Part shown: piece after piece, positions 1,954 to 39,527 of the stretch | Layout: every line of letters begins with the position of its first letter | Position numbering within the stretch: the stretch's first letter is position 1 | Assembly (NCBI RefSeq): GCF_964355755.1 | Contig: NC_092678.1 | Coordinates: 6,048,922 to 6,112,921 of the forward strand | Source of the DNA: Antedon mediterranea | Lineage: Eukaryota; Echinodermata; Crinoidea; Comatulida; Antedonidae | DNA length: 64,000 nucleotides | Reading direction: 5' to 3' | The notes under the pieces: generated by a model | Told to the model about the DNA's origin: nothing | What the model saw: the letters and a program-made list of their open reading frames with translations, nothing else | The model's database searches: none | Made by a program: the position numbers and the translations under genes

Positions 1954-2033
1954 CTTACGTATGCAGTAGTATCATATCATTATATTACTTGTAACTTAAT
2001 AATAAACAACATCTCGGCTAGTTTGCAATCATA

Positions 2034-7492: not shown

Positions 7493-7714
7493 ATTACCTA
7501 GAAGAATAAATAAAGCATAAAGTCTGTGTACTGTAGATTGCCACATTTATCAACATCATCATATGAAAAAAATGAAAGACATCACCTAATATGGTTACAA
7601 TCATACAGTATTTTTCTTTGTATCTTTTTTTATTAATATTTAGGCAAATTGCCAAGGATAATCATAATAATAATTCATTCACGATCCTTCATAAAGGTGG
7701 CAATATCACAACAC

Positions 7715-12768: not shown

Positions 12769-12969
12769 TTATAATGTAGTCTCTGCCTCTTTCTCCGTGA
12801 CACTTTTTATCTTCCGTCGTCGGAAAAAGTACTGAAGAGTCATGACAGCTATAAAGATGAGAAACCCCAACAGCAACATCGTACGAACAACAATCAACAC
12901 AATATTATTAATGTTGTTTGTAAGGTATATGATCTCTCCAAATGTTATGTAGAGGTTGTTATGATATGC
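12769..12969 (-). CDS. Gene D last exon: membrane helix and 17-residue tail
   Basis: The exon follows acceptor TTTTTTCACAG. It encodes a linker, a hydrophobic run from NNIVLIVV through TLQYFF containing one Arg (residue about 1220), a basic stop-transfer RRRK and a tail ending EAETTL, then TAA. The C-terminal T-T-L fits a class I PDZ ligand pattern (S/T-x-hydrophobic). An Arg inside a membrane helix is known from receptors that pair with acidic adaptor helices; here that is only a suggestion. Confidence 0.88.
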   Translation of the reverse strand, partial: AYHNNLYITFGEIIYLTNNINNIVLIVVRTMLLLGFLIFIAVMTLQYFFRRRKIKSVTEKEAETTL

Positions 12970-15900
12970 CTGTGAAAAATAGAGAAAAAAATATCATTAC
13001 TATTACATAAAACCAATCAGTTGAAAGACAATTGATTTTTTAGAAATCGCGGTAAATGAAAAAAAATATTTGAAACGACCGACCAATCATCAAAACTGTA
13101 GCCAAGTGGGGAGTGAGGAAAGATGTCCCCATTCCTGCATGCTCACAAATGAATAAATATGTCGTAAGCTACCTATTTATACAATAATTTTGTCTCATAT
13201 TTCAATGTGTAAGTGCAATTTCCGGGGACTAAGCAGTTCTATTTTTCAAAAGTTCCTTATGTCAGTTTCAGGGGGAGGGGGTCGGTCACTGGGTTAGTTC
13301 CATGAGTGAATGAGTTGATTACAATTTCGTACTAACCCCCAGCTCCCCCAACAGCAACCAGCCTACGCCTATGCAACAGAATGTAGTACGTCTAAAAAAT
13401 AATATTTGCTTCTTTTGCTCTTACCGTGACCAAAGTAGACTTAAGTTTTTCTTCAGGAAGAGCAACCTCCACGTGTGTCTCGGTAAGTCTAATGACCTCC
13501 AACTTGATGCCTCCTATAAATACACTAATGTCACGTTCATCACTGGCGAACGTTAAATTACTCCCCTGCAATATAATAATCTTACTATAAATAATTCACC
13601 AAATCTCTGCGTGTCTGTCCATATGTTCGGCTTTATTCAGAGACCATCTCCCTGGACTAGGTGTCGCATGGTCTTAAAACTTGGTGGGTGTAGCTCGGTA
13701 TAAGAAAGAATGAGTTTGTGTTTGTTAGGTCATCAAGGTCAAAGGTCAAATCTAATCAAAATCTAATTGCTTTGATCGAGCTGAAACTTGGGTAAAGTAC
13801 TACTGAGAATATAGGGTGAGTATGAACCTGATGATGTTTTAAACTACATTTGAAACCTGCTCTGAAGCGGGTATACTTGCTAGTAATAATAATAATGCAG
13901 TAATACCAAAGAGGGTATACTGTGAACCACTGATTTGTATTGTAACAAATTTGGATCACAGGGCTATTGTTAAATAAATTGAAAATGTTATTAATAGTTT
14001 ACTTACAAATAGATACAAAAATTTATTCTCATCTGTCAGTTGGTAAAATCCTTGTTCGTCTACAAAAATGGCGTAACGTGTGGAACCTTCAAACGTATAG
14101 TATACCGGGTCTGAGAAAAACGTAAAATTTGTATTGCCATCAATATCCATACTATCTAAGATGAATCTAACAGTCGCTTCCCTTCCTCCGATGTTGTTCA
14201 CTTGTCGTTTTCTGTGAGCTGAACTGAAATCAACAGCGGGTGAATTACAGATCATTGATTTTTGTTTTTTGTCTGTGCAATTCTGTAAAGATAATCAATG
14301 GTATTAGGTAACACTACCTTTCTTGCAAAAAATAAAAGATATATTATTATCATTATGAGCAAAGATACCCTCAACCCGCACCACCCCCCTCCTCATACAC
14401 ATGTATCGGGAGGGGGGTAACATACTTACCGACTCGAAACTCTGGTCTTCGATTTCAACTATCATTTTGGCATTTTGTACATACTGAAAGTTAATACCAT
14501 CTACTGTTACAACACGACCACCACTGTAAAAAAAATAATCAGTATAGTATAAGAGGGTGGGTTCACACATGAATCAGTATAGTATGAGGGTAGGTTCACA
14601 CACAAATAAAAGAGTACAAGAGATTGGATTGACACACAAATCAAAGAGTACCAGAGGGTGTGTTCACACGCGAATCAAAGAGTACAAGAGAGTTCACACA
14701 CTAATCAAACAGTACAAGAGAGTGGATTCACACACAAATCAAAGAGTACAAGAGGGTGGGTTAACATACGAATCAAAAAGTGCAAAAAGAAATAAAAGAG
14801 TACAAGAGGATATCAAAGAGTACAAGAGGGTGTGTTCACACATGAATCAAAGAGTACAAGAGGGTGTGTTCACACATGAATCAAAGAGTACAAGAGGGTG
14901 TGTTCACACATAAATCAAAGAGTACAAGAGGGTGTGTTCACACATGAATCAAAGAGTACAAGAGGGTGTGTTCACACATAAATCAAAGAGTACAAGAGGG
15001 TGTGTTCACACATGAATCAAAGAGTACAAGAGGATGTGTTCACACATGAATCAAAGAGTACAAGAGGATGTGTTCACACATGAATCAAAGAGTACAAGAG
15101 GATGTGTTCACACATGAATCAAAGAGTACAAGAGGATGTGTTCACACATGAATCAAAGAGTACAAGAGGGTGTGTTCACACATGAATCAAAGAGTACAAG
15201 AGGATGTGTTCACACATGAATCAAAGAGTACAAGAGGGTGTGTTCACACATGAATCAAAGAGTACAAGAGGGTGTGTTCACACATGAATCAAAGAGTACA
15301 AGAGGGTGTGTTCACACATGAATCAAAGAGTACAAGAGGGTGTGTTCACACATGAATCAAAGAGTACAAGAGGGTGTGTTCACACATGAATCAAAGAGTA
15401 CAAGAGGGTGTGTTCACACATGAATCAAAAAGTGCAAAAGGAAATAAAAGAGTACAAAAGGATATCAAAGAGTACAAGAGGGTGTGTTCACACATGAATC
15501 AAAGAGTACAAGAGGGTGTGTTCACACATGAATCAATGAGTACAAGAGGGTGTGTTCACACATAAATCAAAGAGTACAAGAGGGTGTGTTCACACATGAA
15601 TCAAAGAGTACAAGAGGATGTGTTCACACATGAATCAAAGAGTACAAGAGGGTGTGTTCACACATGAATCAAAGAGTACAAGAGGGTGTGTTCACACATG
15701 AATCAAAGAGTACAAGAGGATGTGTTCACACATGAATCAAAGAGTACAAGAGGGTGGGTTCACACATGAATCAAAGAGTACAAGAGGGTGGGTTCACACA
15801 TGAATCAAATAGTACAAGAGGGTGGGTTCACACATGAATCAAAGAGTACAAGAGGGTGGGTTCACACATGAATCAAATAGTACAAGAGGGTGGGTTCACA

Positions 15901-18900
15901 CACAAAAATAGTATACCAGAGTTCGTATACGACATACTTTGTAAATAAATATTTTTCTTTCACTTACGATTTTATGCTTTCTTTGGGGAAGTAATCAACA
16001 ATGTTCGGATTTGTCCGGTAGCAATACTCAAACACTGAAAATTCAATGTTACCAAAGGTGACTATAATTGTCCAGCAACCACTGCTTTCAATACTTCCAG
16101 TTTTACATTCAATTTCTTTGTTACTGTTTCTAAAGAATAAGAAGAGAATTAATTTAAATGTGTATATTTTGATATCCGGCAATAAAACACATGTGACTAT
16201 AAGTGCCAAGGAGTAGCAAAAGAGGTCAGAAGACCACGATCACCATACAACCAAAGAACTTATAACACAAGAATCTCCTGTTCGTCCGAAGCGCGTAACA
16301 ATTTCGAAAGGCATTGTGGGATAGAATAGAGCTAATGGGTGGCGCCATTGTGAGCCACGGAGTCGGGCGCCCGCATCAAATTAGAAAGTCAAAATCATAG
16401 AGGGGATCTGCTAATACTCTAGGGGGGATAGAGTAATTGACTGAGGAGTAGGGTGCCCGCATCAAATTAGAAAGTCAAAATCAAAGAGGGGATCTGCTAA
16501 TACTCTAGGGGAATAGAGTAATTGACTTCCTAGTTTGGAGGGGCGCTGCTCCATGCTGTGAAATGGCGTTGCCCAGTTTGACCTTTTAACCCTGTACTTC
16601 CCATACTGTGTTTTGAATGCAAATTGAAGAACAGGAGATTCTTGTGTTATAAGTTCTTTGATACAACGTACTGGCACACCAACAATAATATTCAGGTAAA
16701 CACCAAACTATTAACAAAAAATGCATCATTTAATTTACCTTATAATCACGCAATCAGCTGTATGAATACTGACAGATACAGAATTAAAGTTAAGGTTATT
16801 GCCTGTAATATTTATAACAGTACCTCCAGCCATGATGCCTGTTGATGGCTGTGCAGAAGAAAACGTTGGTGTCTGTAACCAAAATACATAGCAATTTTTA
16901 GTCAAAGAGAAGGCATTAAGACAGTGGAACCGTAATCCAAAGCCATAACATCAGCAAGGGTTGGAGGCTCACTTGCTCCATGGTTCTGGCGGTAGGACAA
17001 CTCTTCTCGGATAAGGACTATAAGCCGTAGGTCCAGTGTACACACATTGCTTGTGTGCCCTTTAAAGAACCTTTATCTTTCAAACCGAATCTTTCGAGAT
17101 GAGTAGGGGTTACCCTGGTGTATTAGTTCACACACTCAGCCAGTGTCGTGGACAGACGTAATGGCGCCGTATTTGGCTGCCGGTGACACGATGTGACCCT
17201 TAGGGGAGAAGAATGTTGTTGAAAAGGTATAACATCTAAGTCCGTAGCGCTCTGATCTTCATGAAATAGCGCTATATTTTTGTGTAAATGGTCATAGATT
17301 CTATATTTTTGTTTTTCGCTCATCTGTGTAAATTGGCCTTGACATTTTAAATTGACATTTTACCTTTACTGTCGCTGCACGTGTGGTCGACGCTGCTCGC
17401 AATTTTTGTGTATTTTTGTATATTTCTAAACGTTTATGATGTCTATGATAGTTTTTTTATATTGGTAATATTGTCCTAGTGACTGTGAATATTATTTCAA
17501 GATAAGTTGGTGATATTTTAGTGGTTTTTATTGATGAATGACTGCATAATACTATGGATCTGGCCCAGGCTCTAGGATATGCTATTCATCGAACGAATTG
17601 CATTCCATTGGACAAAAGGTGCGCGGACAACCGCTGTCTAGACCCACCATGGACATACCAAAGGAAGCGAGACGGAGAAAACGGGGTAAGGCAGGAGGCA
17701 TTAGGAAACGTTTACGTGCTCGCAAAGCAAGACCATACATTCCTACAATTATTATGGGAAATGTTCAGTCGATATCAAATAAAATGGACGAACTTAGAGC
17801 GAACGCGAAATACTTTCGTGAATTCCGTGATGCCAGTATAATGTCATTCACTGAAACATGGTTGCAGGATAGGCATGATGATTCTCATATCGAAATAAAT
17901 GGTTTTAAATTACTTAGGGGAGACAGAACATGTGAATCAGGAAAGAAAAGGGGTGGTGGTATCTGTATTAACGTCAACGAAAGATATTGTCATCAAAATA
18001 ACGCAGTCGTGAAGAAGCACAGATGCTCACCAAATTGTGAAATTCATGTTGTAAGCGTACGCCCCTATTATATACCCAGGGAATTTTCACACGTTGTCAT
18101 TGTTACTGTATATATTCCCAAAACAAATCTGGTTAATAATGCATCGACAGAGATTGCAGAAGTACTGTACGACATAGAAGCTACCTCGCCCGATGCATTC
18201 GTTGTCATAAACGGAGATTTTAATCGCGGATCATTGAAGAAGACAAGCGAATACTACTACCAACACGTTACATGTCCTACGCGCGAAACAAGTATATTAG
18301 ACCTTTGCTACACAAACGTGAAAAACGCATATGTTTCAACCCAGTGGCCGTGCTTGGGAGATCATTTTTTAATCGTACTAAACCCGAAATACATTCCATT
18401 AGTTAAACGAGAGAAGCCAAGGACTATTAAAGTAAAGAAATGGACAGCAGAAGCAACGGAATGCCTACAAGATGCATTTGATGATACGGACTGGGAGATG
18501 TTTATTAATAACGCTAATGATCTGAATGAACTTACGGACACAGTGTCTGAATATATAAACTTTTGTAGTGATATGCTTATCCCAACTAAAAAGGTTAAAG
18601 TGTTTGCGAATAATAAACCGTGGATAACCAAAGATGTGAAAATTATTATTAACCGGAAACAGAAAGCATTTGCTGAAGGTAATAAAGCGAAATTAAAAGA
18701 GGTCCAAAAAGAATTAAAATGTGCAATACGTAAAGAAAAATACAAGTTTAAAAATAAAGTTGAAAAGAAGTTCACGGAAAATAACATGAAAGAGGTGTGG
18801 CAAGGAATGAGGTTAATGAGTGGACATATAAATAATAAACAAAAATCTGTATCGCTACCAAAAATTGACAAAGAATATGCAAATGAATTCAATATATTTT

Positions 18901-21900
18901 TCAATCGTTTTAACAAATATGATTTTTCAAAAGAAATTAAGGAACGGAAGTGTCAGCTTGAATCAAATATAAATGACATAAAAATTGATACAAATGAGGG
19001 TGAAGTATATAAGTATTTTAGAAATTTGAATGCTAAGAAAGCTCCCGGGCCCGATAAACTTAAACCAAATATTTTAAAATCATGTGCAATGCAGTTATCG
19101 TATATTATTTTTAATTTGTGTTTCACAACTAGTTCACTTCCAGAAACATGGAAACAATCATCTATTGTTCCTATTCCAAAAAGCCGTGTTATTAAGTATA
19201 TGAATGATCTCAGGCCAGTTGCCTTAACATCAGTTGTAGGTAAAATATGTGAGAAAATTGTTTTAAAATGCTTAGAACCAATAGTCACTACGCATACTGA
19301 TCCCATGCAATTTGCATACAGAAGTGCTCGGAGCACAGAAGATGCGATTGTCGTTAAACTTGAAAGGCTGTATCGTCATTTAGATAAAACAAAGGTTGGA
19401 AATTCAGCCCGTGTTATGTATTACGACTTCTCCTCTGCGTTTAACACCATTCAACCCCATTTACTAGTAGATAAGCTGTGTAAGATGGCCATTCCCCTTA
19501 ATTTGATTCTTTTTATTCTGAATTTTCTAACAAACAGAAAGCAGTATGTGAAGCTTAGCCCAACAGTATGTTCTGATGTTAGTGTTTCCAATACAGGTGC
19601 GCCACAAGGCACTGTATTAGCCCCTTTTTTGTTTACCTTGTATACAAGTGATTATAGATCTAAACATGATTCTTGCCCAGTTGTACGATTTGCTGACGAT
19701 ACGGCGATGATTGGCTTGATTCAGAAGGACGATTGCACTTCATATTTAAATGAGATTAATAATTTTGTAAAATATAGTAATGATAACTTTTTAGAATTGA
19801 ATGTTGAAAAAACAAAGGAAATGATTATAGATTTTAGAAAGAAAACGAATAAATGTGATCTAGTTGACATAATGGGTAGACAAATTCAGAGGGTGGAAAC
19901 ATATAAATATCTGGGGGTTGTATTTAACAATAAATTGACGTGGAGTAACCACTTGGATCTCGTTATGAAGAAAGTAAATACTAGAATGTACTGTTTAAGA
20001 CAACTAAACAAGTTCCAAGTTCAGTGTAAATAATAATATTTTGATTACATTCTATCAGTCTATTATTGTTGGGGTTTGGAAATATTGTATTGCAAGGTGG
20101 GGTGGAAATGTTACAGAGGGAGATAAGGGTAGAATTGATTGTGTGGTAAGAAGGGTTGAGAGGATGTCTGGTTTGTGTCAGCAGTCGGTGAATTCAGTTT
20201 ATTGCGAGAACCTGGACAGGCTTTTTGGGATGGTGTTGAGGGATGAAAGTCATCCTGTGAATTCCGATTTAGGCAGTCTCAGGAGTGCTCGTAGTGGAAG
20301 ATTGCGATCCGCGGCTGCTGACACAAACCGATATCTTTTCTCCTTTCTGCCCACAGGTATCAGGAGACATCAGCGACATTCATCCAGATGAGCACCATGA
20401 AATAATATGTAATAATATGTTCTTGTTGTGAGTTTTTAATATTGGTATTGTTGTATTGTCATGCTATTTTATATATTGTAATTATGATGTATTTGAAGAC
20501 GAGTAATGTAAATTTTCTCCTTGTGGGAACGAATAAAGATTATACTTGATACTTGATACTTGACTTGATACTTAACTCTTAGCATAAACTGTGTCTCACC
20601 AATCCAAGAAAATCTATGTGAAAACTGTGGTAACATTTTTTACCAGTGTAAATGAGCCAACAAATAATTAATCTGAAGTGGGTTTTTAATTGTATGTTTT
20701 TACCTGATATTCAAGAGTTCCAACAATTGTGGGATTACCATTTACCATCACTGTAACACTTTGAAAACCAGCATTAGGAAAGCTTGGAGCCTTACAAGAA
20801 ATTCTATAAAAAAAAAAAAATTTTTCTAATTAATTTTTTTATTGTCTTTTAATAGGCCTGCTTAATGGTTCAATTATAAGACCATTCTCAAATTCTCTTT
20901 CGGCAACCAATACTTGACCTGATAATCACAATAGGTTCCCAGAATTTCCAGCCCTCTCAGTCCTTTCAGTTCCACAAAAAATAGGACATAAGCAACTGAA
21001 ATTTCACTTCAATTCAAATGTTGACATTTTTCGTGTGCCTGAAAGTTGCGTGGAGTTGCGCGGAGTGCTTATGTTCCGTGTCAACATATGCGCACCTTTA
21101 ATGTTCTAGGCCTACTTCTTAATTATTTCCTATGTAGATATTTATAACATCCTGTATAAAGAACATTAAAACACACCCTTGAAAGGATCTTTTACTGTAT
21201 AACCAGAAAAAACAAACATATAACCAGTGGCTGTATTCACCATGTTGATCGTTGAGTTGCGTTGAATTTAAAATCGTTAAAGTGGAAAATAAAATAACAA
21301 TGATCGAGTCGGAACGCTAATATTTACACATTTTTACGCGATCGTTCATAGTTTCTTGGTTCCTTGAGCGTTGCTAGGACGGACGTGAAGTGTGAAAAAA
21401 CCATGCACAGCCGGGCCCGCGTAAAAATTGAAAAAGTTTTGATACTTCAACCCAGCCTAGGACATGCTTTCGATGGTATCTTAATCTAGGCTTACACTAA
21501 AGACAAACATCAAATAAATTGTTTAAAATTATACAATAATTTAAATTGACTCGTTGTTTTGAAATATTAGACCTTAAAAAGTGTACAAAAAAGGTGAAAA
21601 ACATTGTTGCGTTGTAAAAATTCAAGAATTGTCAGCTCGTTTCTATTTTTGGACCATTTGATTGGTCAGTTTTAACAACCGCAACGTTAAAGTTGAACCA
21701 GGTTCAACTTTAACGATTGCAGATTTTAAAGATTTTTAACATTGATTTTACCCCTTTTCCTATAAAGTCGTTGATCCAGTCAATTTGATTGGTTAATTAC
21801 GCATTACGTGACATTTAGAATTAGCCCAACGAAACGGAAAATGATATCCAATGGTGATTATTAACATGCTCTAATGCACATTCAGCTTTCTGATAATTTT

Positions 21901-24900
21901 TGTCATGCGACATTTCTGACTGATCACGTTCTGAAATCAACTTGTTGTGCATGCCGTGTATTCTAACTAATCTACTCCTTGTCTAAAGTTGGAGCACTGC
22001 CTTTTTGAATGGCCCTTCAATCATTTACGATCGCTAAATTTAATCAAGTAAGTGTGTTATAAAACAAATAATGAATGTTTTGTATTCGTTGAATAGAGAA
22101 AATATTTTATTTGACGAAAAAATTACTGCTCTATTTTCAACTTGGCTGCGCCTCTTTCTAACTCATAAAATGTTCTCACCATCATAAACATTATTTGTAT
22201 ACTATAGAATGCTGTTAATATTGTATCGCCTTTGGTCTAATGGAAGGTGATAGTTCAAATCTATGCTGGGGAGACTAAACTCTAACGGATTTACGCATTA
22301 TTACAAAGATTACTCACTCTTTGCCAACTTGATATGTTTTACGTCTATTCTTACATGGTTTTCCACCAACGTCAATATCAAGATCTTCGACTCTCTGCCC
22401 AAGATCTTGACCAATCAGAGTGATTACATCGACATACTGTTCGCCTGCTGACGTCGGAACAACCTTTGGTAAAATCTTGAAAATTTGGTAAAAGCATTAA
22501 TAAGTAAATAATAAATTGATTAGTGTAATAAACACATGCTAATGTATTTAACAGTATGTTTTTAATTAATAAACACTGCATTTTTCTAAAAAAGAGGACA
22601 GGGTCAGAGTTCAAAACCTGTTTGTAATAATACACAAAAGTTGAATTTCCCTTTAAAAACAATGTTAGCATTTTAATTAATTATAGGTTTAGTTGGCCGT
22701 TAGAGGGCAGGTTAAATTATTGGTAAAACACAATACTCAGGGGAGGATCCAGAATTTTCCTACTAACATTACCTATACTAACCTTATTCACTATTGGTGG
22801 TGGACAAGAAGGTGGTTGTCCTGCTGAACATCTAGACTCCAACACACATATCCCTGTATTACACCATGTACAGTTGTACTCAGGTGGGGTAGTTAGTGGA
22901 GACAGACAAGTACTGCAATCAGGTCGGCCCACAGAACAATCGTACAAAGTTACTATATATGAATTTTCAATTGTTTTAATTATTTTCTAAATTAAAAAAT
23001 GTATAAAGCTCTGTCTATACTATCAAACTTTATGTGAAAAGAAATGTCATAATATCACTACCATATTTGGGCACATCACACGTTTTTTTGTCAAATTAGT
23101 TGATAGTATAGACAGCTTTAGAAGAAACCAAACTATTTTATCAAGTATCTACATAATCAATCAATAAACTATATATTAATCAATCAATAAATAATTAATC
23201 AAATCATTAATCAGACAAAAATTCAATCAATAACATGCTTTAATATTTTAAGTCTATGAATTATTCATACATAGTTTACTTACAATAGGAAAGTATTATA
23301 TATATTTGTTTATATATTTATATATATTTGTTTATATATTTATATATATTTGTTTATATATTTATATATATTTGTTTATATATTTATATATATTTGTTTA
23401 TATATTTATATATATTTGTTTATATATTTTATTTTAAAATTTAAATACCTTTCCAATTGAAATCAATGTAGTTGGTGTTATTCCACACAACTTCAATTGT
23501 TGTGTTTTTCTCCTGCGATATCCCATCAGAGACATACTGGGAAACGAGAAATGGGAAATTTAAGTATCATTATTGGTGAATCTTTAACTAGAGTACCTTC
23601 ATTGTACATCTTATATTCTTGATCTTAAGCAGTGTTTACACGCACTAGAGTTAAGTCTGTTCTATGCACGCTTAAGCTGATCCAAATCATACCAGAGTTA
23701 TATAAGCGGTATAACTCCGATAGATTTCTTTCAGGTACATCCAATGTTACTCAACTGTCATAGATTTTAGAATGTAAAATTAAACAAGTGTTTTCCATCA
23801 GGGTATTTGTAGCTGCTTTAATATCGCGCCCAGATTCAGTCCAGCTCCCTGAGAAAAATATTGCGAGAAATGGGTTCAGTGGTAAGCATAGGATTGTTCA
23901 CACCAAAATCGTATGATTTGAATCTGTGCCTGATTCAGAGCGATGGATCAAGAAGCCACTTGTTTCATGAAATCATATAATTTATTTCTTTTGACCAATC
24001 AACAGTGAGCATGAATGACCTCCTTTGACACTGGATAACCAAATTTGTGCTCAATATGAGGACATGTCCAACACTCTGATATTTTTCTCAGGGCACCTGA
24101 ATATGGATGCGATGTGAATTACAGTGTATATCAGATGTTTACACAACAGATTCGTTTTCAGATAATTTATTAGTAATATATTACAATTTAATTCCTTACC
24201 TTATAATCGTCACAGATAATATTTTTATCATCAATCCTTGTAGCTGGAACAGTGTCTATTCCATTAATTACACAAATGTAATCTGAGACCTGTAAATAAT
24301 ATAAACACACAGATGCTTTATATCAGTGATTAAAGGGCCTTTCACACCTGTTCCGGCACGGTTCCGGTCCGGCGAATCGAACATCAATGTTTCGTTTTCA
24401 CGCGGCTATGCGCCAATCGATATGCGCGTAGCCGCGTAAAATCGAAACATTGACGTTCGATTGGATTTTCCGGCGCCGGACTGGAACCGTGCCGGAACAG
24501 GTGTGAAAGACCCTTAATGGTAGTAAAGAACTTAGATAGTAAGAAAACACATTGGTGATCTATTTGATAATAATACTAATATGGTCATTACTCTGATGGT
24601 GATAGCCTACTGGTCAACAGTGTACCAAAACTGCCTAAAGTCATTTCAATTATATATAAATAGAAATAACTTTTACATACATTTAAAAGATTGTTGGCTT
24701 TAATCATAATCTTCTTTGTCGTTCCAGTGTGAAAAAACTCTAGTTCAGTCTGTGAGGCTATTTGAGGACATTTCTGAAAAAAAGAATGATAACTTATGTC
24801 AAATGGCACCCATGGCAAACAGAACACTAGACTGGTGTTACTTTCATGTAGAGGCTGAAAGCAAAAGCTTACAAGTCCCTCATTACTTGTACAATTTTTC

Positions 24901-27900
24901 TTAGGTAAGGCAAATACTGTAAAACCAGAAACTTTCGCGAATCCGTTACATCAGTCATTTTTGCAACATAAAACATTCGCAAACTTGAAAAAGTAGAAGT
25001 AAATACTATAACAGGATCACGTATGCACGACATTTGTGTTATAAAGACGCTAATGCATTAGCTATTGTATGTTGTAGTAGGCCTATATGTTCTGAAAACT
25101 TTAAAGATTTCAATCACTTGCAAAATTCACGTTTAATGTGCGTGAAAGTTTCTGGTTTTACAATACTTTGCAGGGTGATTTTGCCAATGTTTTTTGTTAT
25201 TTTTTTTTAAAAATTAATTTATTGTGGCTAAATTTACTGATTCATGTGAGAGGGCATTTCAATTATTTATACTTGTGACTAAAAAGTGATTTTGTCGAAT
25301 GTTTGGTTTTAATTTTTCTAATTTTCCAACGATGGCCTCTGGTTCGTCAACCATAATATAATTCAACTCAAATCAACATTTATTTCTTCGAAATATAAGA
25401 ATGGCAATAGTAAATGTAAAAGTTTCTTAATTTAGAAATAAGTATCGTCATCGTGAGGTGGTTTCCCGAAAGATCGTAAAATCAAAACGGTACTGGGTAT
25501 GACCAACTAGCGTTATTGTCACCGGCTAGTCATCCATTCATAGAAGTACTAATGTAGTAGCCTACCTGTACGGTGACCATAGAATGTGACCCGAGGCATG
25601 ACTAACTACGACTTTTAGATGATAGAAAGTTGAGAAAAATTGTTACGAGTAGTTGTACGACATGAAGATGTTTATGAAATTATGTTAAAGATGTAAAAAC
25701 ATATTACATTAGGTATATAAACAGTAATGAGTGTTAGTAAAAATAAAATAATGTAAAAAAGACATAAGGAAGAAAAGCAAAGAGATTATGGAGCGGCTGT
25801 ACCTGAATATACAATAAAAATATTGTAAGTTTAAAGCAACATGTACACTTGTTCCGTTTCATGGAATGGAAGCTGGAGCTGTTCGATTCTGTATATGATG
25901 TTCTATTATTCAACAACATTATAATACACTGTATTTAATGAGACTCCAAAAGTCTAAAACATGACAAATATTTTCTCAATGAATTTATAGCATTCCCAAT
26001 AACAATTTTTTTTACACTGAATTATTAGGTGAACTTGTCTTTTTTTCTTTTATATGCATCATGTTGTTACATTAGTTTCATATCCTGTTTGGATATCAAG
26101 GTTTTAACTCATTTCAGTACCAAAAAGGAAAACAAAACCGAAAAAGGATTGGTATTATATTGAACACTTCCTTATACAAAAATAGAAGCATTAAACAAAT
26201 AGTAGCTTCATTGAAAAACAACAAGAATACAATAATTTCCACCTCAATGAAACCTCCAGTAAGTCTTTACAAAGTTGCTGTAATTTGTTGTTTTTTTTTT
26301 AGATAAAGATATTTGGATTGAATCCTTTGTTGCCAGAGGCTTCTTCTGGTCCATTGAATATTGAACGTGCTGTGAGTTCGGTATACCAGAGTTAAAACTT
26401 ATCTTTCGGGTCTAGGGACAGACATACCAGTTCTGAATTGACAGGAACATCTTCCATGATGGAACAAGACCTACTAACCCCATCAGCACATGTGTTTTCC
26501 AATGTACACCACAAACAGTCAAAGTGGCTAGCAGCACATGTAGAGCATCTATTATTAGATATAAGAATTAGATTAATATAACAGTTAACATTGGTCTGCA
26601 TTTAGTTAGATAGATAGCATGACATTATCTATCAACTGAATAAGGAAAATAGTTAAATCCTGTGATTAAACTTAATCATATACACATTTTATACTGCCAG
26701 CAAAAATGCGGAGTTGATCCGAAACTGTGACCCAGTGATGCGAAATGTATTCAGTGTCAAGTCAACGAGGTAGTTTTAACCATGTCTATACACTGAAAAT
26801 GTTTTAATATGCCCAAACCACAAAGAAGGGAAGTAAGTTATAGCTTAAGCTCCTGTTTGGCTTAAGTACTTTGGTATATTATAGTTTTCAGGTTAGGAGA
26901 ACTAGTCCCAATCTCAACAACAAAAATGTTACACACATACAGAACTTACACATTGCAGGAATAGAAATCGTATGATGTTTCTATGAACTTGACTTGAGTT
27001 AAAGTTGAAAGGATATAGATGGTTACCGATACATGATCTGTAAAATGAAGGAACCCAACAATTATGTTAAACAATGCAGTGGCGGATCCAACATTTTGAA
27101 ATAGGAGGAGCAAGGCCTAAAAAAAGTGGAATTACATGCTTAGGCCATAACCTAAATGCCCTATCTTTTGCATTGCAATTTCCAAAATCACCATCCGAGC
27201 CCTCTTTCCTGAAAAGGGCTAATAGGAAACATGTTTAATCCGCCTATCAGGTCTCATTTAACAGGAAGCCTACATTTGCTACAAAGATACAACTGCGTAA
27301 ACTAGTAAATCACTATATTTAATTGCACCAACTTCAAGTAAACTGGTTGAAAAAAGTTTTCATTGATAGCATCAGGAAGGGGAAATAAGCTTACCTGAAT
27401 AAGAGTGTATCAACTATTCAACTAGACCTATGTATATTGAATTTATATCATCTATTTTTTATGAAATATTTCAATTCATGCATATTTTAGCTAAAAAAAG
27501 CTCAAGAGGAAGACTAATTTATTTATTTTTTTAGAGTACTTAAAATTTAAAAAGCAAACCAATAACCAGAGAAAGTTTCAGAGTTGAACAATCTATTATA
27601 ATAATGACAGATGGTTTTACCAGATCCTTCAGGTACTGGCGGTAGCACGGCAGGACTTTCACAATAAAGTGTCTGGTTTACTAAAGTCGCTTGCCGGGTG
27701 ACACTGACATCAACTCCATTAAATATACAAAGATAACTGTCACTACCAGTTAAAGCTGGTAGATTTGTAAATTTAATTTCCAGCTAGAAAGAGCAGAAAA
27801 TACAAAATATCATACTATCCAGCTTACACTAGCAAACTCTAATACAGATCCAGAGCTATAACCATTAGTCTAACTGTGTGGGAACGGCCAATCTGGATAG

Positions 27901-30900
27901 CACAACCATGGAGTTATAAAATTACACAACCAAGCTTGATCCTGCTCAATAAGCTAGTGTCATGATCGGGAACGATTTGATTTGATTTTTTAATAGTACT
28001 GTATTTCTTTGCAAGCCCATATAGCCAGCGGGATTTGTAGGTTCGAAGGTAGGTTTTTCTTTAAATGCCCTTTTCAAACAGAGACCATCAGTGAAAATGC
28101 TTGTAAATAGGCCTACTTATGAAAATGGTATGGCCAATATGTTATGGCCTTAAAGTTTTATTTTCTTCTAGCCTTTTGCTTACACTTTACACTTGCCCTT
28201 TTTGAGAAAAAATGTAACATGAAATAACATCAGTAATTTTGGTAATATATCTAGATCATGAATGGACAGTTGACTTTTGCAACAGATTGAGGCAATGGAT
28301 GTATGTAATAAAAATAAGCTATAAGATATCATACATACAACCCTTATTGATCACTAGTGGCCACTAGTTGATATATAACATAGACTGTATAGAATATATA
28401 TCTTATTATTAACTTACCGTTGATGCACCATCATTGTATGGTAAATTTGGAGGTGAAACACTATCGATAGAAATACATATGTCGTTGTAAGCAAGCCACA
28501 CACCAGAGGAACAAGTATCGTATGTGCTACACCTGAAAAAATAAAATACAATCAGTTGTAACAGACCTAACTGTTAGTTACTAGCCAAAACCTTACTCTA
28601 AATGTTAGTTACTAGCCCAGACCTAACTGTTAGTTTAGCCCAGACCTTTTCTGTAACTGTTACTAGCCCAGACCTACAGTTAGCTACTAGCCCAGACCTC
28701 ATTCTGTTTTTCAATTACTCAATCTTACAGTATGGTAGACAATGTGCCAACCTATTTTGACTGTTAGGATGGAAGTTAGGTAGTAGGCCTACCCTGGTAG
28801 GGTGAAGGAACGCTCTCTAACTTAATATTAATTCTTGTGGAGTTGGATAACTCCCAGTCCACTCAGCTGTAAATGAGTACCTAGTTGAAAATACTAGGGA
28901 GAAAAAAGGCAGCGTGGAAAGGAACTGGCCACCCTCTACCACATAATGCCGAGGCTTAGTACATTGGGCTCCTAACAGCTCATTCCCCTATGTTCAGAAT
29001 GAACCCTGGACTCACATCACCTATTAATTCTTGTAAATATACGGTTACTGTATACAGCTGGGTTAAAATATTGTATCTAACTGGGTCTGCCTAAGCTAGT
29101 TAAGTTGACATAGGGAGGGAGACACTTGCACTTTCTAGGTACCTGAAATACAATGCATGCTGCGCTATTTTGTATAATTTGCAAGGCATTAAAATTAAAT
29201 TGGGACATTCTCTAAGAAGTGAATTACACATTAAAGTCTAAGCATTTTTAGCCAATCCCTCAATTTATTAATTCCTGTCTCAAGACAAGTCACAGTCCTT
29301 GACATCAGTAGTTAATATGGATGCTGGAAATGTTTGAACAGGGAGGTATAAAAATAAACTCCCTGGTTTAAATGATACAATTAAAAAATTAAACTTTAGA
29401 ATATTTATATAATTATACAGTACTGTAATATAATAGTGTTAGCTTTTAGTTGGGCAATTGGTTTTGCCTATTTTCTGTGATATATTTATCACAGAAAATA
29501 TATCCTTGTAATCATAATAAACCTACAGTACAAACACCTATTCTAATGAACATGATATCTCACATTTCAAATCTACTTCCTGAAACACTTCCTAGTTTAT
29601 ACAATGTATCTATATATTATTACATAATGGCAAATTTCAGTAAATCACGCATAATTCTAAATACTTACTTAATATTTTGGTACTAATTGTTAGACACAGA
29701 CACAATTAACGGTTAAATTCAATTTTTAAAACCTAAGGAACACAATAATAGCCTCTTACCTGTTCATCAGTGTACACCATCCACAGTATGGGTCACCAAC
29801 ACCGCCACCAACCCCCAGACATTCACTACATGTTGTATACTGTTCACATTCTGCAACAGGCACTTTTGTAATCTATAAATATATATTTTAATTTTTTTTT
29901 CAAAATATGCATGGTTTGCATATATAGAATCATCTTTGCTAAACATCAAAATTCTCATCGAATAGCTTTATTTGAGGTCACTACACACGCAGTTCCAAAG
30001 GACTAGTTTGTACCCCCAAAGCCTCGCTAAATTATTAATTATTTATCAAGGTACAACCTTAAAACTTGTTACACCTAGTTTTTCATAACCAGTGAACTTG
30101 AATCAACTGGCAAGATTCAAGATTATTTATTTTTCTTGGAAATTTTGAGGTTAGATCCACAACAGACTATACATACTTGCTGTTTAGTTATGACGTATAT
30201 AGAATCATTATCTTTGCTCAACATCAGTCCATTTCTTATAACTGAACTGCCGGCATCTATCGTTTTCGTCTCATACTTCTGAGCAGATGTCAATGAATCT
30301 AATCGTAGCTATATATATAAATAGTTAAATTTTTTGGATAAATTTTAAGCAGTTATACACCAACATACAACATATATATTGTGTTGTCTCGCACCCTAGA
30401 TAGAAACCAAGATAAATGTCATGAAAACTTACCTTCACAAGATCACCTTTGTCATCTCCTAGAAATATCACACTTTCCTGTACCTCGTCTATGTATTGAA
30501 ACGCGACTGATGTGAACAGTGTGTCATCCTCCTGGTAAATAGCATCTGCTACAATCGGGGCATCACCACCAAGGTCTGGAATCTGCTCAAGGTAATGGCA
30601 ATAGGGCACTTGTTCATCTACTAGCAGTTGTTCCTAAAATAATTAATTTAAACAATTCTGGTTATATCAAACATTAATGATATGGGGAAAATATAATGCA
30701 CTCAGAAATCTATGTTTCCTATTTTTATGACATTTTTTGTTTCCAAATGATTTTTTGTTAATCCATTTATTATTAATTATGACCAACAAATAATAAATGA
30801 TAAATTAGCTGCCAAATGTAACCGTAGTCTTTATTGTTTAAGAAAAATAATGTTTTGGTCAAACTGTTTTATGAATCTGTTATACAATCAGTACTCTGTT

Positions 30901-33091
30901 TTTGCTGCATTGTTTGGGGTAACAGTATTACCAAAGCCAATTACAATAGACTGAATAGGGTAGTGAAGACAGCTAGCAAACGCTTAAACGTAAACTTAAA
31001 CCCCTTAGAAAACATGTGCAATGATCTTGTAAATAAGAAAGTTAAATCTATTATCGCTGATGATATGCATCCCTTGCATGGAGAGTTTATAGTTTTAAAT
31101 AAGTATGGTAAATTAAGAATGATGCGTATTAAAACAACTTGATTTAGGAATGCCTTTCTACCTTCAGCACTGCAGACAGTATATTTATTAAAAACAAACC
31201 TAGATAAGATAATTAGAATTTTCATTGTTGATAAAATTTTGGTTTTTTGCAAGTGTTTCTACTAATTGAGTGTATTCTTTTTGGCAACAAGAAGACAAAT
31301 TTCATACTGTACTATCTTGGTTTGTATGACAATAAAAGATCTGTGTATCTGTATCTGTCGTGAGGTAATTTCCCGATTGATCATAATCAAAACGGTACTG
31401 GGTTTGGTCTACTAGCGTTCCTGCTCCCAACCAGTACATCCATTCATAGAAGCTTTAATGAAGTAAGCCTACCTGGTGGTAACCATAGAATGGTTCCGAG
31501 ATAACGACTATACTTCGGCTTTTAGTCAATAGAAGATTGAAAAAATTGTTATAATATTAATAAAAAGACATTTGTTAGTATAAATTTAAAACATATAGAT
31601 ATAAGGAAGAAAAGCAAAGAGATTATGGAGCGGCTGTACCAGAATATACAACACTAAGTATTGTAAAGTTAATATACTAAACAATTTAGGCGATCTTGTC
31701 AAAGGTCAAGCGCCTTCAGCCTGCCACGTTTCGATATTCAATATTGAACTTGACCTATAACAGTTTATTTGTGATTTATATAGAATCCAAATAATTTGAT
31801 AACTATAGAGAAAATAGATAAAAGCGAAATATACAAATCCCAATAATGTGCTTTGCTTACTAACTATACTAGGATTTTTTTTAATAATTTATATTCATGT
31901 ACAATTATTGATTAATTGATAATATATATATATTAATTATGTGTGAACATTTCTTACCCATAAAGTATTTGCTCCGCAATCATGCTGACTAGATCCAGCC
32001 CACTGGACAGTTTTAAATGTCGTATTTCCTTGTGCGCATTCCTTATATGCATTCAAGAACGAATATTCTATTTTATCCGACAAAGAATATACACAAACAG
32101 CAGATTTCCGCTCTGGAATCGAGCTTGCACCATTTTTGGACCTTCCAAAGGTTACAACAAGTATGAGTGATGATGTGTTTGGCTCAGACGGCACCCTATT
32201 CGCCAAGTAAGCTGACTGGGCCAGCATGTATTTCTGGCCATTATGATTGCAAACAAGAGGCAGTTCAATATATGATACCTTATAGGTCTGATCAGATTCA
32301 CAAGTATGTGTAATGTATGTTTGGTAATTAGGGGTGGTTTGTGAGTAATTCTCATCATAAACAACAACATAATAGTTAATATTATTACTATTAAATCCAT
32401 GTATAAAGTCCATTTTAAATCCTTGTTTTATATGACTGTCTGACGCTTTCTTTTGTGATTTTTGCAGCATGCTTTTCTGTACCTCAAAATCTACTAAAGA
32501 ACGTGTAGCGAATAGCGGTAAATCAGGGTCAATAGCAGCTACAGTTCCAATATATAAGTTTGGTTCACCAGCCGGATTCTGTATAATCATTGCTACACTA
32601 TTTCCATCTGTGTTTACCACGGGAACACTAATTGGTAGACCAATATCTACATAGTATCCATCTGTGTATATTGACCAAATAAACAGCTGATCAATAGTTG
32701 TCAAGTTAGAACGATATAAAAAATCGCAACCTCCTTGATAAACAGTTCCACATGAAATAATTATATCACCAAATTGTAATAACAATTTGTTTGAATTATT
32801 CCTGAATGTTCGTTCAAAAGCACACTCTGCAGGGGGCGCACGTGTACAGTCCGGATTATCTAATTTTGGTCCAATATCTCCTTGTACTATTAGTCTTAAG
32901 TCACCAGCATCAAGTCTATAAACTTTGTTTAAGCCTCCAATAAATATGTTTTCCAATTCATTATCATACACCACTGAGGAAAAATTTCCGCCAGGATCTC
33001 TATATTTGTCATAGCTTTGTGATAAGGCTGGACATAATACAACAAAAGTGACTGCAAACTTCCAAAATATCTTCCAACAATGTTGTGCCAT
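12769..33091 (-). CDS. Plexin-like receptor D: full plexin ectodomain, one membrane helix, no cytoplasmic GAP
   Basis: Twenty coding exons read in one unbroken frame for 1,257 residues. Exons: 33,091-31,958; 30,633-30,433; 30,308-30,177; 29,872-29,760; 28,532-28,418; 27,783-27,621; 27,037-26,950; 26,548-26,428; 24,773-24,681; 24,289-24,200; 23,536-23,449; 22,952-22,783; 22,475-22,318; 20,803-20,704; 16,872-16,739; 16,129-15,968; 14,523-14,430; 14,282-14,007; 13,565-13,425; 12,969-12,769. Order: signal peptide, sema (to about 490), PSI1 (497-546), IPT1, PSI2 (645-680), IPT2, PSI3 (783-830), about four IPT modules, membrane helix (1214-1240), 17-residue tail. Plexins bind semaphorins and signal through an intracellular R-Ras/Rap GAP of roughly 600 residues; that part is absent and there is no space for it before gene 1. 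Likely a decoy, co-receptor or adaptor-coupled receptor (inference). MET/RON-type receptors are excluded by the three PSI modules. Confidence 0.9.
13425..28532 (-). CDS. Gene D stalk: PSI1 end, IPT and PSI modules
   Basis: Fifteen exons from 28,532-28,418 to 13,565-13,425. Recognisable pieces: [19 protein letters not shown] completes PSI1; LYCESP in IPT1; [14 protein letters not shown] is PSI2; [13 protein letters not shown] ends IPT2; [13 protein letters not shown] and [15 protein letters not shown] are PSI3; [19 protein letters not shown] opens IPT3; [16 protein letters not shown] opens IPT4; [12 protein letters not shown] opens IPT5; [19 protein letters not shown] is the last IPT. Near residue 1078 the sequence AHRKRQ is a dibasic site, possibly a convertase site, though P4 is His rather than Arg. 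A LINE, two MITEs and a 1.4-kb minisatellite lie in its introns. Confidence 0.88.
14537..15905. repeat. 34-bp minisatellite, about 39 copies, in a gene D intron
   Basis: Unit CACACATGAATCAAAGAGTA followed by CAAGAGGGTGTGTT. Variants differ at single bases (GGTGTG, GATGTG, GGTGGG), and there are two shared degenerate blocks near 14,780-14,820 and 15,430-15,475, indicating higher-order duplication. The array lies between exons 16,129-15,968 and 14,523-14,430 and starts right beside the latter's acceptor. Confidence 0.95.
16252..16660. mobile_element. MITE with perfect 32-bp inverted ends and 7-bp target duplication
   Basis: The ends at 16,252-16,283 and 16,629-16,660 are perfect inverted repeats beginning CAAAGAACTTATAACACAAG. 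They are flanked by direct repeats ATACAAC at 16,245-16,251 and 16,661-16,667. The interior holds a duplicated segment of about 62 bp (16,369-16,430 and 16,452-16,513). The length of the target duplication is near that of hAT elements (8 bp); the superfamily is uncertain. The perfect ends indicate a recent insertion, about 80 bp from exon 16,872-16,739. Confidence 0.9.
16950..17130 (+). mobile_element. SINE-like segment
   Basis: Contains GGATAAGGACTATAAGCC, CCCTTTAAAGAACC and TCGAGATGAGTAGGGGTTACC. From memory these resemble conserved body words of invertebrate SINEs. No clear Pol III boxes or ends are defined. Confidence 0.45.
17345..20575 (+). mobile_element. CR1/Rex1-like LINE, nearly full length
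   Basis: Carries an apurinic endonuclease-reverse transcriptase reading frame (see CDS), a short 3' untranslated region and a 3' end of tandem TTGATAC-like repeats at about 20,545-20,573, typical of CR1-group LINEs. The 5' border is uncertain. It is inserted in the intron between gene D exons 20,803-20,704 and 16,872-16,739, antisense to the gene. Confidence 0.85.
17598..20391 (+). CDS. LINE ORF2: endonuclease and reverse transcriptase, one frameshift
   Basis: An 811-residue frame (17,598-20,033) continues in another frame at 20,041-20,391. Order: basic N-terminus, AP endonuclease ([39 protein letters not shown]), then reverse transcriptase ([61 protein letters not shown], catalytic FADDTAMIG) and a C-terminal [13 protein letters not shown] segment. 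The TLYTSD and FADD contexts fit the Rex1 branch of CR1. A single extra A in the run near 20,030 (TGTAAATAAT) breaks the frame; otherwise no stops. The copy is young but probably not autonomous unless the frameshift is a sequencing error. Confidence 0.88.
21685..21715. repeat. Perfect 31-bp palindrome
   Basis: CGTTAAAGTTGAACC, one A, then GGTTCAACTTTAACG: two perfect 15-bp arms in a gene D intron. Confidence 0.9.
23006..23118. mobile_element. MITE, sister copy of 2,034-2,177
   Basis: The ends AAGCTCTGTCTATACTATCAAA and TGATAGTATAGACAGCTT are inverted, with internal CACTACCATATTTGGGCACA shared with the other copy. It lies in the intron between gene D exons 23,536-23,449 and 22,952-22,783. Confidence 0.75.
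23288..23430. repeat. 22-bp AT-rich minisatellite
   Basis: About six copies of TATTTGTTTATATATTTATA plus TA, ending about 20 bases from the donor of exon 23,536-23,449. Confidence 0.9.
24330..24517. mobile_element. Palindromic MITE flanked by TTAA
   Basis: The two halves are inverted over most of their length: AAGGGCCTTTCACACCTG and TTCCGGCACGGTTCC on the left, GGAACCGTGCCGGAACAG and GTGTGAAAGACCCTT on the right. TTAA borders both ends (24,330-24,333 and 24,514-24,517), as in piggyBac-type insertion. It is GC-rich against an AT-rich background and lies just 5' (gene sense) of exon 24,289-24,200. Confidence 0.8.
24919..25161. mobile_element. MITE with 21-bp inverted ends
   Basis: GTAAAACCAGAAACTTTCGCG on the left and CGTGAAAGTTTCTGGTTTTAC on the right differ at one position. 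Flanking AATACT (24,913-24,918 and 25,162-25,167) is a likely target duplication. No coding capacity. Confidence 0.8.
25446..25840 (+). repeat. Interspersed repeat R1, long copy
   Basis: Aligns along its length with 31,357-31,690, from GTGAGGTRRTTTCCCG to GAGATTATGGAGCGGCTGTACC. No coding frame and no clear terminal repeats. Family not recognised. Confidence 0.65.
28560..28710. repeat. Imperfect tandem repeat of about 25-30 bp
   Basis: Five irregular copies of a unit containing CCTAACTGTTAGTTACTAGCC just upstream (gene sense) of gene D exon 28,532-28,418. Confidence 0.75.
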
Positions 33092-33107
33092 CTTGAATAT
33101 TCGTACT
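29760..33107 (-). CDS. Gene D head cassette: signal peptide, sema, PSI1
   Basis: Four exons: 33,107-31,958 (16 noncoding bases, then ATG at 33,091), 30,633-30,433, 30,308-30,177 and 29,872-29,760. The signal peptide ends near [16 protein letters not shown]. The sema part carries [11 protein letters not shown] and [20 protein letters not shown]. The PSI exon has [12 protein letters not shown] and DPYCGWCTL and ends in phase 2. Compared with A and C, exon 1 of D is 51 nt longer, adding 17 residues around [16 protein letters not shown]. The whole cassette is duplicated as head C. Confidence 0.9.
30789..31356 (+). mobile_element. 3' fragment of a Rex1-like LINE
   Basis: Encodes a decayed reverse transcriptase C-terminus: [14 protein letters not shown], then in another frame [35 protein letters not shown] and, past a stop, [11 protein letters not shown]. 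It ends in ATAAAAGATCTG and tandem TGTATC. It lies in the first coding intron of gene D. The equivalent site in head A (near 49,495) is uninterrupted. Confidence 0.8.
31357..31690 (+). repeat. Interspersed repeat R1, copy abutting the LINE fragment
   Basis: Starts directly after the (TGTATC)n tail of the LINE fragment and aligns with 25,446-25,840. Together with the LINE piece it forms the block missing from head A. Confidence 0.65.
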
Positions 33108-33778
33108 CTGCAAAATATAGTAAGATAATATGTCAAGAAGATGTAAGACACTAAAACTTGTTGGAATATAGTGCATTTCAAACATGATAAAATATTTGTA
33201 AGAATGTAAAACTTAGGCCTAGTTTGCAATGGATCTATACCATAGATGGTCGTTTAAATGCAGTTTGAATTAACTTCTTATTTAGGTTGGCCGACTGAAT
33301 TATGCAAGATTAAGACTATGAACATATTGAAAGCAAAGGGCGTGCATACAAAAAACACCACCAATAAACTAATTTTCTTTGGTTATATTTATTTATACTT
33401 TTTTACAAAAACGGTCTAAAATTGCATAGTTTTCACATTAATTGAAACCGCATAAAGTTGAATGTTATTTCAAATAGGTAGCTGACTACTTATTCATCAT
33501 AGAGGGTTTATAAAACAATAGGTCACTATGTCATGGTGAACATGGGACCAGCTTTTAAATGAGTGGTCGCATGCCAATAGTATGTATTCGACTAAAATCA
33601 AATTACTTAAATGTTTAATTTAAAATTAGTAACCTGGCTAATTTTATATATATTACTGTCCAAATTGATGAGTTCAAATCAAGTTGTTTGTTTTTTTTTG
33701 TATTTTCAAAAGAATTTGTTACTGTACCTTTAATAGGGTTTCAATGTAGTAGCTTCAAACTTTGCATTTCAGGCTCGC

Positions 33779-34050
33779 CTGTACATGGTACAACTGCTGT
33801 GAAATCAACAGTACTGCTAATATAGCAACAAACAGGATGTCATACATAAATATATAACTATAAAAGCATACAGTGGCTAATGCATTCAAAGTAAAATTCC
33901 TCTGAAAAGTGTACAATAAACATATAATTCAACTCATACCACATTGGGCAGTGTGTGTTGATCAACTCAAGAATACCAAAGATAGAGATAATGATATGCA
34001 ACAAAAACTTGTGGTATACTTCAGCATATAGATGGCGCTGTCACAATAAT
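33779..34050 (-). promoter_or_regulatory. Promoter/noncoding 5' exon block of head D
   Basis: Minus-strand words shared with the other heads: TTGATCAACACACACTGCCC, CAGAGGAATTTTACTTTG, TATGACATCCTGTTTGTTGC and TGTTGATTTCACAGCAG. The presumed first exon would end at 33,779, where the donor reads ACAG|GCGAGC rather than GTGAGT as in gene 1 and head A. It would thus need a GC-AG intron or another donor. The target acceptor is TTTTGCAG at 33,108. Confidence 0.55.
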
Positions 34051-34428
34051 TAAATCAAAGATTTTTTTCTTTATTTTAATCATTTTTTCTGGAGAATAAA
34101 AGTATACCTTTTTTAGGCACTTCTTGGTTTGAGTAGGGCTACAAATTATAATTATATTTATATTTATCTGATTATCTTTACCTTTTGTTTTTTATCTTTA
34201 TATTTTATATTTTGTTGGTTTTTAAATTTTTTTATTGTAGATAAACACTTGAAACACTTCCTAGTTTATACAATGTATCTATATATTATTACATAATGGC
34301 AAATTTCAGTAAATCACGCATAATTCTAAATACTTACTTAATATTTTGGTACTAATTGTTAGACACAGACACAATTAACGGTTAAATTCAATTTTTAAAA
34401 CCTAAGGAACACAATAATAGCCTCTTAC

Positions 34429-38174: not shown

Positions 38175-39281
38175 AACAAATAAATAAAACAGGTTTAAGT
38201 TTCTTTTAATTTGTTTTAAAAATATATATGATTTTTATATAATGAAAACAGTATAAATTATCAACAGTTTCTAAGCATCTTTATTTGAATTTTCTGCATA
38301 ATTGTAAAAATATGAAAATGTATAAAAAGAAAATTTAGAAATTGTATTAATATAACATGTAAATGTATAAAATGTAAAATACTACACCAGTTACAGATTA
38401 TATTTGGTCTAAATTTACAATTTTTATATTACGCTGCTTAAATGTGATTTTTCATAAGCACACAGAATCATTGCATAAACTGGCAAGTAATTGTAATTAA
38501 TCAATCAACTATTTCCATCTGTGTTTATCACGGGTGGACTAACCAGCTGACCAATAATTGTTAAGTTAGAACTATACAAAAATTCGCAAGTTCCTCGATT
38601 AACAGTTCCACACGAGATGATTTTATCACCAAATTGTAATAACAATTTGTTTGAATTATTCCTGAATGTTCGTTCAAAAGCACATTCTGCAGGGGGTGGC
38701 ATTGTACAGTCCGGATTATCTAATTTTAGTCCAATATCTCCTTGTACTATTAGTCTTAAGTCACCAGCATCAAGTCTATAAACTTTGTTTAAGCCTCCGA
38801 TAAATATGTTTTCTAATTCACTATCATACACGACTGAGAAAAAATTTCCCCGAGGATCTTTGTATTTTTTCATAGCTTTGTGATAAGGCTGGACATAATA
38901 CAACAAAAGTGACTGCAACCTTCCAAAATAAACAAATAAATAAAACAGTTTTAAGTTTCATTTAATTTGTTTTAAAAATATATATGATTTTTATATAATG
39001 AAAACAGTATAAATTATCAACAGTTTCTAAGCATCTTTATTTGAAAACGGAATCTTGATCACTTAATATACTGGTTTTTTTTCTGCATAATTGTAAAAAT
39101 ATGAAAATGTATAAAAAAAATTAGAAATTGTATTAATATAACATTTAAATGTATAAAATGTAAAATACTACACCAGTTACAGATTATATTTGGTCTAAAT
39201 TTACAATTTTTATATTACGCTGCTTAAATATGATTTTTCATAAGCACACAAAATCATTGCAAAAACTGGTAAGTAATTGCA
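38175..39281. repeat. Direct repeats (about 330 bp) flanking fragment B
   Basis: 38,175-38,498 and 38,931-39,281 align from AACAAATAAATAAAACAG to ACTGGYAAGTAATTG. The right copy has about 38 extra bases near 39,045-39,082. Fragment B lies exactly between them. Confidence 0.9.
38508..38929 (-). pseudogene. Sema exon fragment B (broken)
   Basis: Homologous to the first third of the head exon, from just after the signal-peptide start to NTDGNS. It has no start codon, no splice sites and an extra base near 38,870 that shifts the frame between SYDK and KYKDPRGN. Closer to A in some residues ([24 protein letters not shown]). A dead duplicate. Confidence 0.9.
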
Positions 39282-39527
39282 ATCGAACCAAAGACTCCAC
39301 TTTTTTATAACACACATGACACAAGTCATTATGTGACTTATACAACTTAAATGAATTAAAGTTGGGACAGTACTAAACTAATGGGTTGAAATAACACATT
39401 TTAAGAATGAAACATCCATTTTTTTAAATTAAAAATCAAATTTCAAAAATGTATAAAGAACACCAATTTAGATTTTGTTCTTGATAATTTTCAACAGGGG
39501 AGGATCCAGGAAGGAAGGTGGGTAGGA

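Follow-up and report, generated by a model that had tools for sequence, protein, structure and literature searches.

A plexin gene that ends after its membrane helix

The window analysed here is a stretch of 64,000 nucleotides from the crinoid Antedon mediterranea (RefSeq assembly GCF_964355755.1, contig NC_092678.1, here C9, forward-strand positions 6,048,922 to 6,112,921). It holds no N letters in its 64 kb, and it carries on its minus strand, from 33091 to 12769, a gene for a plexin that stops before any GTPase-activating (GAP) domain and is called here the GAP-less plexin; bare numbers are window positions, and the prefix C9 marks positions on the contig. An initial annotation, made from the letters of the window, had described 20 exons that read through as one 1,257-residue frame with a sema domain, three PSI and about six IPT modules, one membrane helix and a tail of 17 residues, and this structure is confirmed by the splice-joined frame, by Pfam and by hydropathy. 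The 19 introns are all GT-AG, and the exons join into one open frame of 1,257 codons and a stop. Above the Pfam cut-offs, the product matches Sema (34.3 bits), PSI (41 bits in three stretches) and TIG (96 bits in five stretches), along with the further families TIG_plexin, TIG_2 and PSI_Plexin-B; none of the cytoplasmic plexin families rises above cut-off in its 1,257 residues. The best solved relative is Plexin-A4 (expectation value, E, 3.4e-101), aligned with residues 32-1119, and so long an alignment with known plexins led us to reject a chance joining of exons. Hydropathy places the single membrane helix at about residues 1212-1240. The protein has the sema-PSI-IPT ectodomain of a plexin, with three PSI modules and IPT repeats, and the single helix after the last IPT, and it has no cytoplasmic Ras/Rap GAP with a Rho-binding domain; we therefore file it as a GAP-less plexin derivative, not as a signalling plexin.

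Every exon is supported by the spliced frame, and its domain content by Pfam except where stated. Exon 1 (31958-33091) contains the start codon, most of the sema domain and, judged by eye, a likely signal peptide. The sema domain continues through exon 2 (30433-30633) and exon 3 (30177-30308, by position) to its end in exon 4 (29760-29872), which also encodes the first half of PSI1 and is the last exon of what comparison with other copies defines as the head. Exon 5 (28418-28532) holds the second half of PSI1 and the start of IPT1, which continues in exon 6 (27621-27783) and ends in exon 7 (26950-27037); exon 8 (26428-26548) encodes PSI2, recognised by eye. IPT2 is spread over exons 9 (24681-24773), 10 (24200-24289) and 11 (23449-23536), and PSI3 lies in exon 12 (22783-22952), which is 86% identical to a GAP-bearing paralogue at C9:2.47 Mb (the 2.47 Mb gene). 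Exons 13 (22318-22475) and 14 (20704-20803) are assigned to IPT3 by position, and IPT4 lies in exon 15 (16739-16872) and exon 16 (15968-16129), whose coding sequence goes on beyond it. Exons 17 (14430-14523) and 18 (14007-14282) are defined by the spliced frame, exon 19 (13425-13565) holds the last IPT by position, and exon 20 (12769-12969), the homologue of the juxtamembrane exon in GAP-bearing plexins, encodes the membrane helix, the tail ending in ETTL and the stop. Intron 14 also contains an antisense frame resembling a non-LTR (long terminal repeat) retrotransposon (17550-20391, plus strand; 827 and then 127 amino acids), with a reverse transcriptase recognised by eye.

Absence and loss of the cytoplasmic region

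The absence of a GAP, as first annotated, was borne out. With the GAP exons of the closest complete paralogue as queries, no credible GAP exon was found between the stop and the sema exon of the next plexin downstream (gene 1). The sole match in that interval, 11 residues at 12066 to one short GAP exon (E 0.10), is taken for chance, and GAP relics behind the stop were rejected as a candidate since nothing else appeared up to gene 1's sema exon. When the DNA behind the stop was compared with the GAP region of the 2.47 Mb gene, the shared exon aligned at E 4e-9 and there were otherwise only short matches with E of at least 0.01. The highest score of any GT donor ahead of the stop in exon 20 is 1.7; the 19 real donors score 6.0-12.5, and a hidden donor in this exon was rejected on these scores. 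Exon 20 matches no plexin family, its best hit being TMEM154 at 16.9 bits, below that family's cut-off of 30.3; as a control, the partial cytoplasmic sequence of the 2.47 Mb paralogue scored 171 bits for Plexin_cytopl.

The same GAP-exon queries clearly match GAP exons further downstream, which lie from C9:6000689 downward on the strand of the GAP-less plexin, some 61 kb past its stop. Transcripts could in principle run from exon 19, or from a hidden site, into a distant GAP such as that of gene 1, and the 11-residue match at 12066 would at best be a relic. The real GAP exons, however, come only after the start of gene 1 itself and a membrane exon (C9:6001048), and exon 20 offers no donor before its stop, so that we regard such missed GAP exons as very improbable.

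The membrane exons of GAP-bearing paralogues (two by DNA, three by protein) can be aligned with exon 20, which is 39% identical to that of the 2.47 Mb gene; a genome search with the last 113 residues of the GAP-less plexin returned, besides itself, only this gene at E < 1e-3. In the 2.47 Mb gene the membrane exon runs on into a juxtamembrane coiled coil and is then spliced to GAP exons. Exon 20 retains the helix and the residues KIKS (RIKS in the 2.47 Mb gene) and then meets a stop inside the coiled coil, with no counterpart of the paralogue's splice donor; the number of codons missing from it depends on the alignment, being twelve by protein and six by DNA. The initial annotation had raised the question of a GAP-bearing plexin elsewhere in the genome, and such genes exist: with 86 of 86 candidates scored, there are 57 GAP exon matches, all on C9, which when grouped by position form 15 loci with two or more exons and four single-exon loci. 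Because multi-exon GAP loci exist elsewhere in the family on the same chromosome, the loss of the GAP in this gene is, by comparison with its relatives, derived.

Met and Met-LP receptors carry a cytoplasmic tyrosine kinase, and here the stop falls 17 residues past the helix. None of 148 kinase matches (E <= 1e-8; 133 of 773 candidates scored) lies in the window and the last exon is that of GAP-bearing plexins, and a Met-LP gene with an overlooked kinase was rejected on both counts. Elsewhere on the plexin chromosome, two kinase exons (21383461-21382521, minus strand) lie about 28 kb past a sema match of like strand at C9:21411134, which makes this a candidate Met or Met-LP gene.

Mosaic origin and gene C

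While the anatomy in the initial annotation stands, the description was incomplete, with no mention of the mosaic nature of the gene or of its setting among partial copies. The head (exons 1-4) was compared over 509 codons with C9:5889242-5875721, and shows 89.6% amino-acid identity, a synonymous divergence (dS) of 0.19 and a ratio of nonsynonymous to synonymous divergence (dN/dS) of 0.26-0.27. The latter interval holds exons 1-4 of gene C, a complete GAP-bearing plexin (C9:5889242-5819702) 190 kb from the GAP-less plexin. Downstream of gene C's head, and in matching phase with it, a small search placed an exon 5 at C9:5855 kb (E 2.2e-6), after which come the stalk, the membrane exon and the GAP. 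Gene C provides the only convincing sema exon in C9:5820-5900 kb. The stalk of gene C is only 36-40% identical to that of the GAP-less plexin where the two match at all. Exons 5-7 have their nearest counterparts at C9:6043-6042 kb (80, 56 and 69%), and for exons 9-15 the 2.47 Mb gene is the closest among complete genes (61-86%); over exons 9-14 a degraded stalk within the window matches about as well (58-83%, taking the better of its copies). Exons 16-19 are 48-70% identical to the 2.47 Mb gene. Judged by these identities, the gene for the GAP-less plexin is a mosaic.

Runs of identity along the heads were assessed against 10000 permutations for each of six pairs. For the pairs that include the GAP-less plexin, the observed runs were reached in 0 permutations against the head at 36.9 kb, in 7 for the longest run shared with gene C and in 29 against the head at 52.1 kb; for the other three pairs they were reached in 3568, 1138 and 133. 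These counts point to ectopic gene conversion involving the head of the GAP-less plexin.

Selection on the open frame

Aligned with the 2.47 Mb gene, exons 9-20 comprise 561 codons with no stop and in-frame gaps only, at a dS of 0.43 and a dN/dS of about 0.50; block by block the ratio is 0.29-0.61 by NG86, and for exons 19-20 the YN00 ratio is not computable. The four heads, gene C's included, are all open, with dN/dS of 0.24-0.49 across six pairs and two methods. Neutral simulations with substitutions only, 2000 at each level of change, left the whole frame open in 4.6% of cases at 0.02 changes per site and in none at 0.05. Either the GAP was lost very recently or the GAP-less frame has been kept by selection, and the latter seems likelier to us.

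A recent loss would fit a young, dying duplicate, which makes an idle protein and whose frame is merely not yet broken. Broken pieces do lie nearby (the exon 1 fragment at 38.9 kb and the degraded stalk at 47.8-41.4 kb), as do the flanks of an apparent, very recent duplication, 99.9-100% identical. The gene itself gives a different impression, with none of its 20 exons or of the splice sites of its 19 introns broken and with dN/dS below 1 in both head and stalk, and under neutral drift a stop would be expected in most cases once changes exceeded about 2% per site. We consider a dying duplicate fairly unlikely.

A proposed non-signalling semaphorin receptor

We propose, with a probability of about 0.5, that the GAP-less plexin is a membrane-anchored protein that descends from a complete plexin, lacks both GAP and Rho-binding domain, binds the semaphorin of gene C and damps or tunes its signal. 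The loss of everything past the membrane helix is shown by the sequence, as is the nature of the last exon as a shortened juxtamembrane exon of GAP-bearing paralogues. Because the head is common to the two genes, the truncated product would bind the same semaphorin as the product of gene C but would be unable to activate a Rap GAP. Acting as a tethered decoy, or as a partner that does not itself signal, it would sequester ligand and pair with signalling plexins and so weaken or shape the signal, while ectopic gene conversion would keep its head and that of gene C matched; the ETTL end may dock a PDZ adaptor, as the neuropilin tail does. A decoy or co-receptor role had already been suggested in the initial annotation; it is still the best guess, made firmer by the ligand-binding head held in common with a GAP-bearing gene, and as a reading of sequence it stays tentative.

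Several observations weigh against this proposal. An open frame gives no date for the loss of the GAP, and a very recent loss would look alike. The block of exons 9-11 (90 codons) has a dN/dS of 0.94 with YN00, compared with 0.49 with NG86. The membership of the C9:5889 kb head in gene C is predicted from order, from phase and from there being no other convincing sema exon in 80 kb, not from complementary DNA (cDNA). The sema domain of the GAP-less plexin also contains an in-frame stretch of 51 bases (17 residues; exon 1 alignment columns 409-459) that is missing from the three other heads, gene C's included, so ligand binding may differ from that of gene C. Finally, the terminal TTL fits the type I PDZ consensus, given as (S/T)-X-(A/V/L/I) (PMC6499541), but a match of ETTL has about a 4% chance of arising by composition.

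That last figure bears equally on a view in which the protein is not a decoy and acts instead as a co-receptor or adhesion molecule that signals through a PDZ adaptor. Besides the fit of ETTL to the consensus, this view can appeal to neuropilin 1 (NRP1), which is described as serving as a semaphorin co-receptor with a non-catalytic tail of 44 residues and a PDZ-binding end (PMC4854174). The motif is nevertheless a matter of few residues, no family reaches its cut-off in exon 20, and we hold PDZ-coupled signalling to be unlikely.

Relation to known semaphorin receptors

If the proposed role is correct, a separate gene for a plexin that binds and does not signal would give this animal a built-in antagonist or co-receptor for semaphorin signalling, which to our knowledge is otherwise known from truncated plexin forms, sponge gene surveys or unrelated neuropilins. 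Truncated plexin-B1 arises by alternative splicing and is thus a form of plexin-B1 itself, whereas the GAP-less plexin is encoded by a separate gene. The likeness lies in a plexin ectodomain without the signalling part, and the short form of plexin-B1 is described as cell-bound, partly secreted and possibly a decoy (PMC1838422).

Four plexins of Amphimedon queenslandica (Plexin-A1 to -A4) are reported to have only short intracellular parts with no conserved domains (PMC6374515). Their likeness to the present gene is limited to that feature; they are sponge genes from a genome survey, whereas here the truncation is traceable from GAP-bearing paralogues in the same genome and the head is common with a complete plexin. 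In view of these sponge plexins and of truncated plexin-B1, the initial suggestion of an undescribed class was too strong. Met-LP receptor kinases, reported from echinoderms and lophotrochozoans, likewise have a complete plexin ectodomain and no plexin GAP (PMC6374515), but carry a kinase where the GAP-less plexin has its 17-residue tail. Neuropilins are semaphorin receptors with a short non-catalytic tail, which in NRP1 ends in a PDZ-binding motif, but their ectodomain is unrelated (CUB, coagulation factor V/VIII-like and MAM-like domains) and the likeness is one of working mode only (PMC4854174). Gene C, gene 1 and the 2.47 Mb gene have homologues of the ectodomain and membrane exon of the GAP-less plexin, but run on into GAP and Rho-binding domain exons.

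An expansion of plexins has been reported in a starfish and is cited for a sea urchin (PMC6374515). No bilaterian gene of the present kind was found among the listed papers and the openings of their abstracts, a search with most subscription journals outside its scope and one that does not imply absence from print. Because complete paralogues lie on the same chromosome, the proposed steps of duplication, head exchange and loss of GAP exons are readable and testable.

Partial copies upstream and the downstream neighbour

Upstream of the GAP-less plexin lie further copies, all on the minus strand. The promoter and 5' leader region of the gene (33092-34245) is 99.9% identical to 38068-36915, and next to the latter is a second intact sema head (34429-36914; exons 1-4 at 36914-35832, 35310-35110, 34979-34848 and 34541-34429), for which no exons 5-20 of its own were found. 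Beyond this are a fragment of a further exon 1 (38508-38930), matched in two frames and frame-shifted near its start, and a third copy (41392-52081), in which an intact head (exons 1-4, 52081-48487) is followed by the degraded stalk (47.8-41.4 kb); there exon 5 runs into a stop, exons 11 and 12 are doubled, and exons 6-8 and 15-20 were not found.

The second head and that of the GAP-less plexin were compared as blocks 38068-34250 and 34245-29581, which abut at 34250/34245. Over about 1.3 kb of upstream region and the first part of exon 1 there is one mismatch, and over about 0.5 kb across exon 4 there is none, whereas differences in the interiors reach 15 per 100 bases and intron 1 is unalignable. 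Such flanks around a divergent interior would point to a tandem duplication of very recent date whose interior was exchanged, or else to two alleles side by side, and the choice leaves exons 5-20 of the GAP-less plexin untouched. Since this is the pattern expected of two alleles, as well as of a new tandem duplication plus conversion, the assembly may have placed alleles or copies in tandem, in which case the gene or the second head (36.9-34.4 kb) would not be a true neighbour. Only exons 1-4 are touched by it, however, the 20 exons of the gene are collinear without gaps, and the join to the next gene retains gene 1's own 5' region; an artefact of this kind is in our judgement doubtful.

A more speculative and rather improbable arrangement would be a head-switching array. 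The sema heads at 52.1, 36.9 and 33.1 kb, each with an upstream region of its own, would take turns in being spliced to a common GAP-less stalk (exons 5-20), and ectopic gene conversion would carry head sequence to and from gene C, so that the silent and the signalling receptors would remain matched as head variants grew in number. With a second and a third intact head present, whether splicing exchanges heads can be asked directly. Perhaps a second case of a doubled head is found at C9:12682750 and 12684767 (plus strand), where two sema exons lie 2 kb apart upstream of an apparent single GAP locus (12715498).

Downstream, the start of gene 1 occupies 1-7546 on the minus strand, with a sema exon frame at 7546-6278, and this complete plexin runs on beyond the window. 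In a gene model not drawn from cDNA, gene 1 is assigned the membrane exon (C9:6001048) together with GAP exons as far as C9:5984974, since these share its strand and no further sema start was found in between. Its 5' region (11234-11034, minus strand) is 70% identical over 203 bases to the upstream region of the GAP-less plexin and begins about 1.5 kb beyond the stop of that gene, in agreement with the distance to gene 1's promoter given in the initial annotation.

The window contains three minisatellite arrays, at 14624-15915 (34-bp units, within intron 16 of the GAP-less plexin), 39429-40112 (19-bp units) and 45787-46364 (mixed 14- and 29-bp units). The sequence TAGGCCTA occurs nine times in the window when both strands are counted, against 0.65 occurrences expected.

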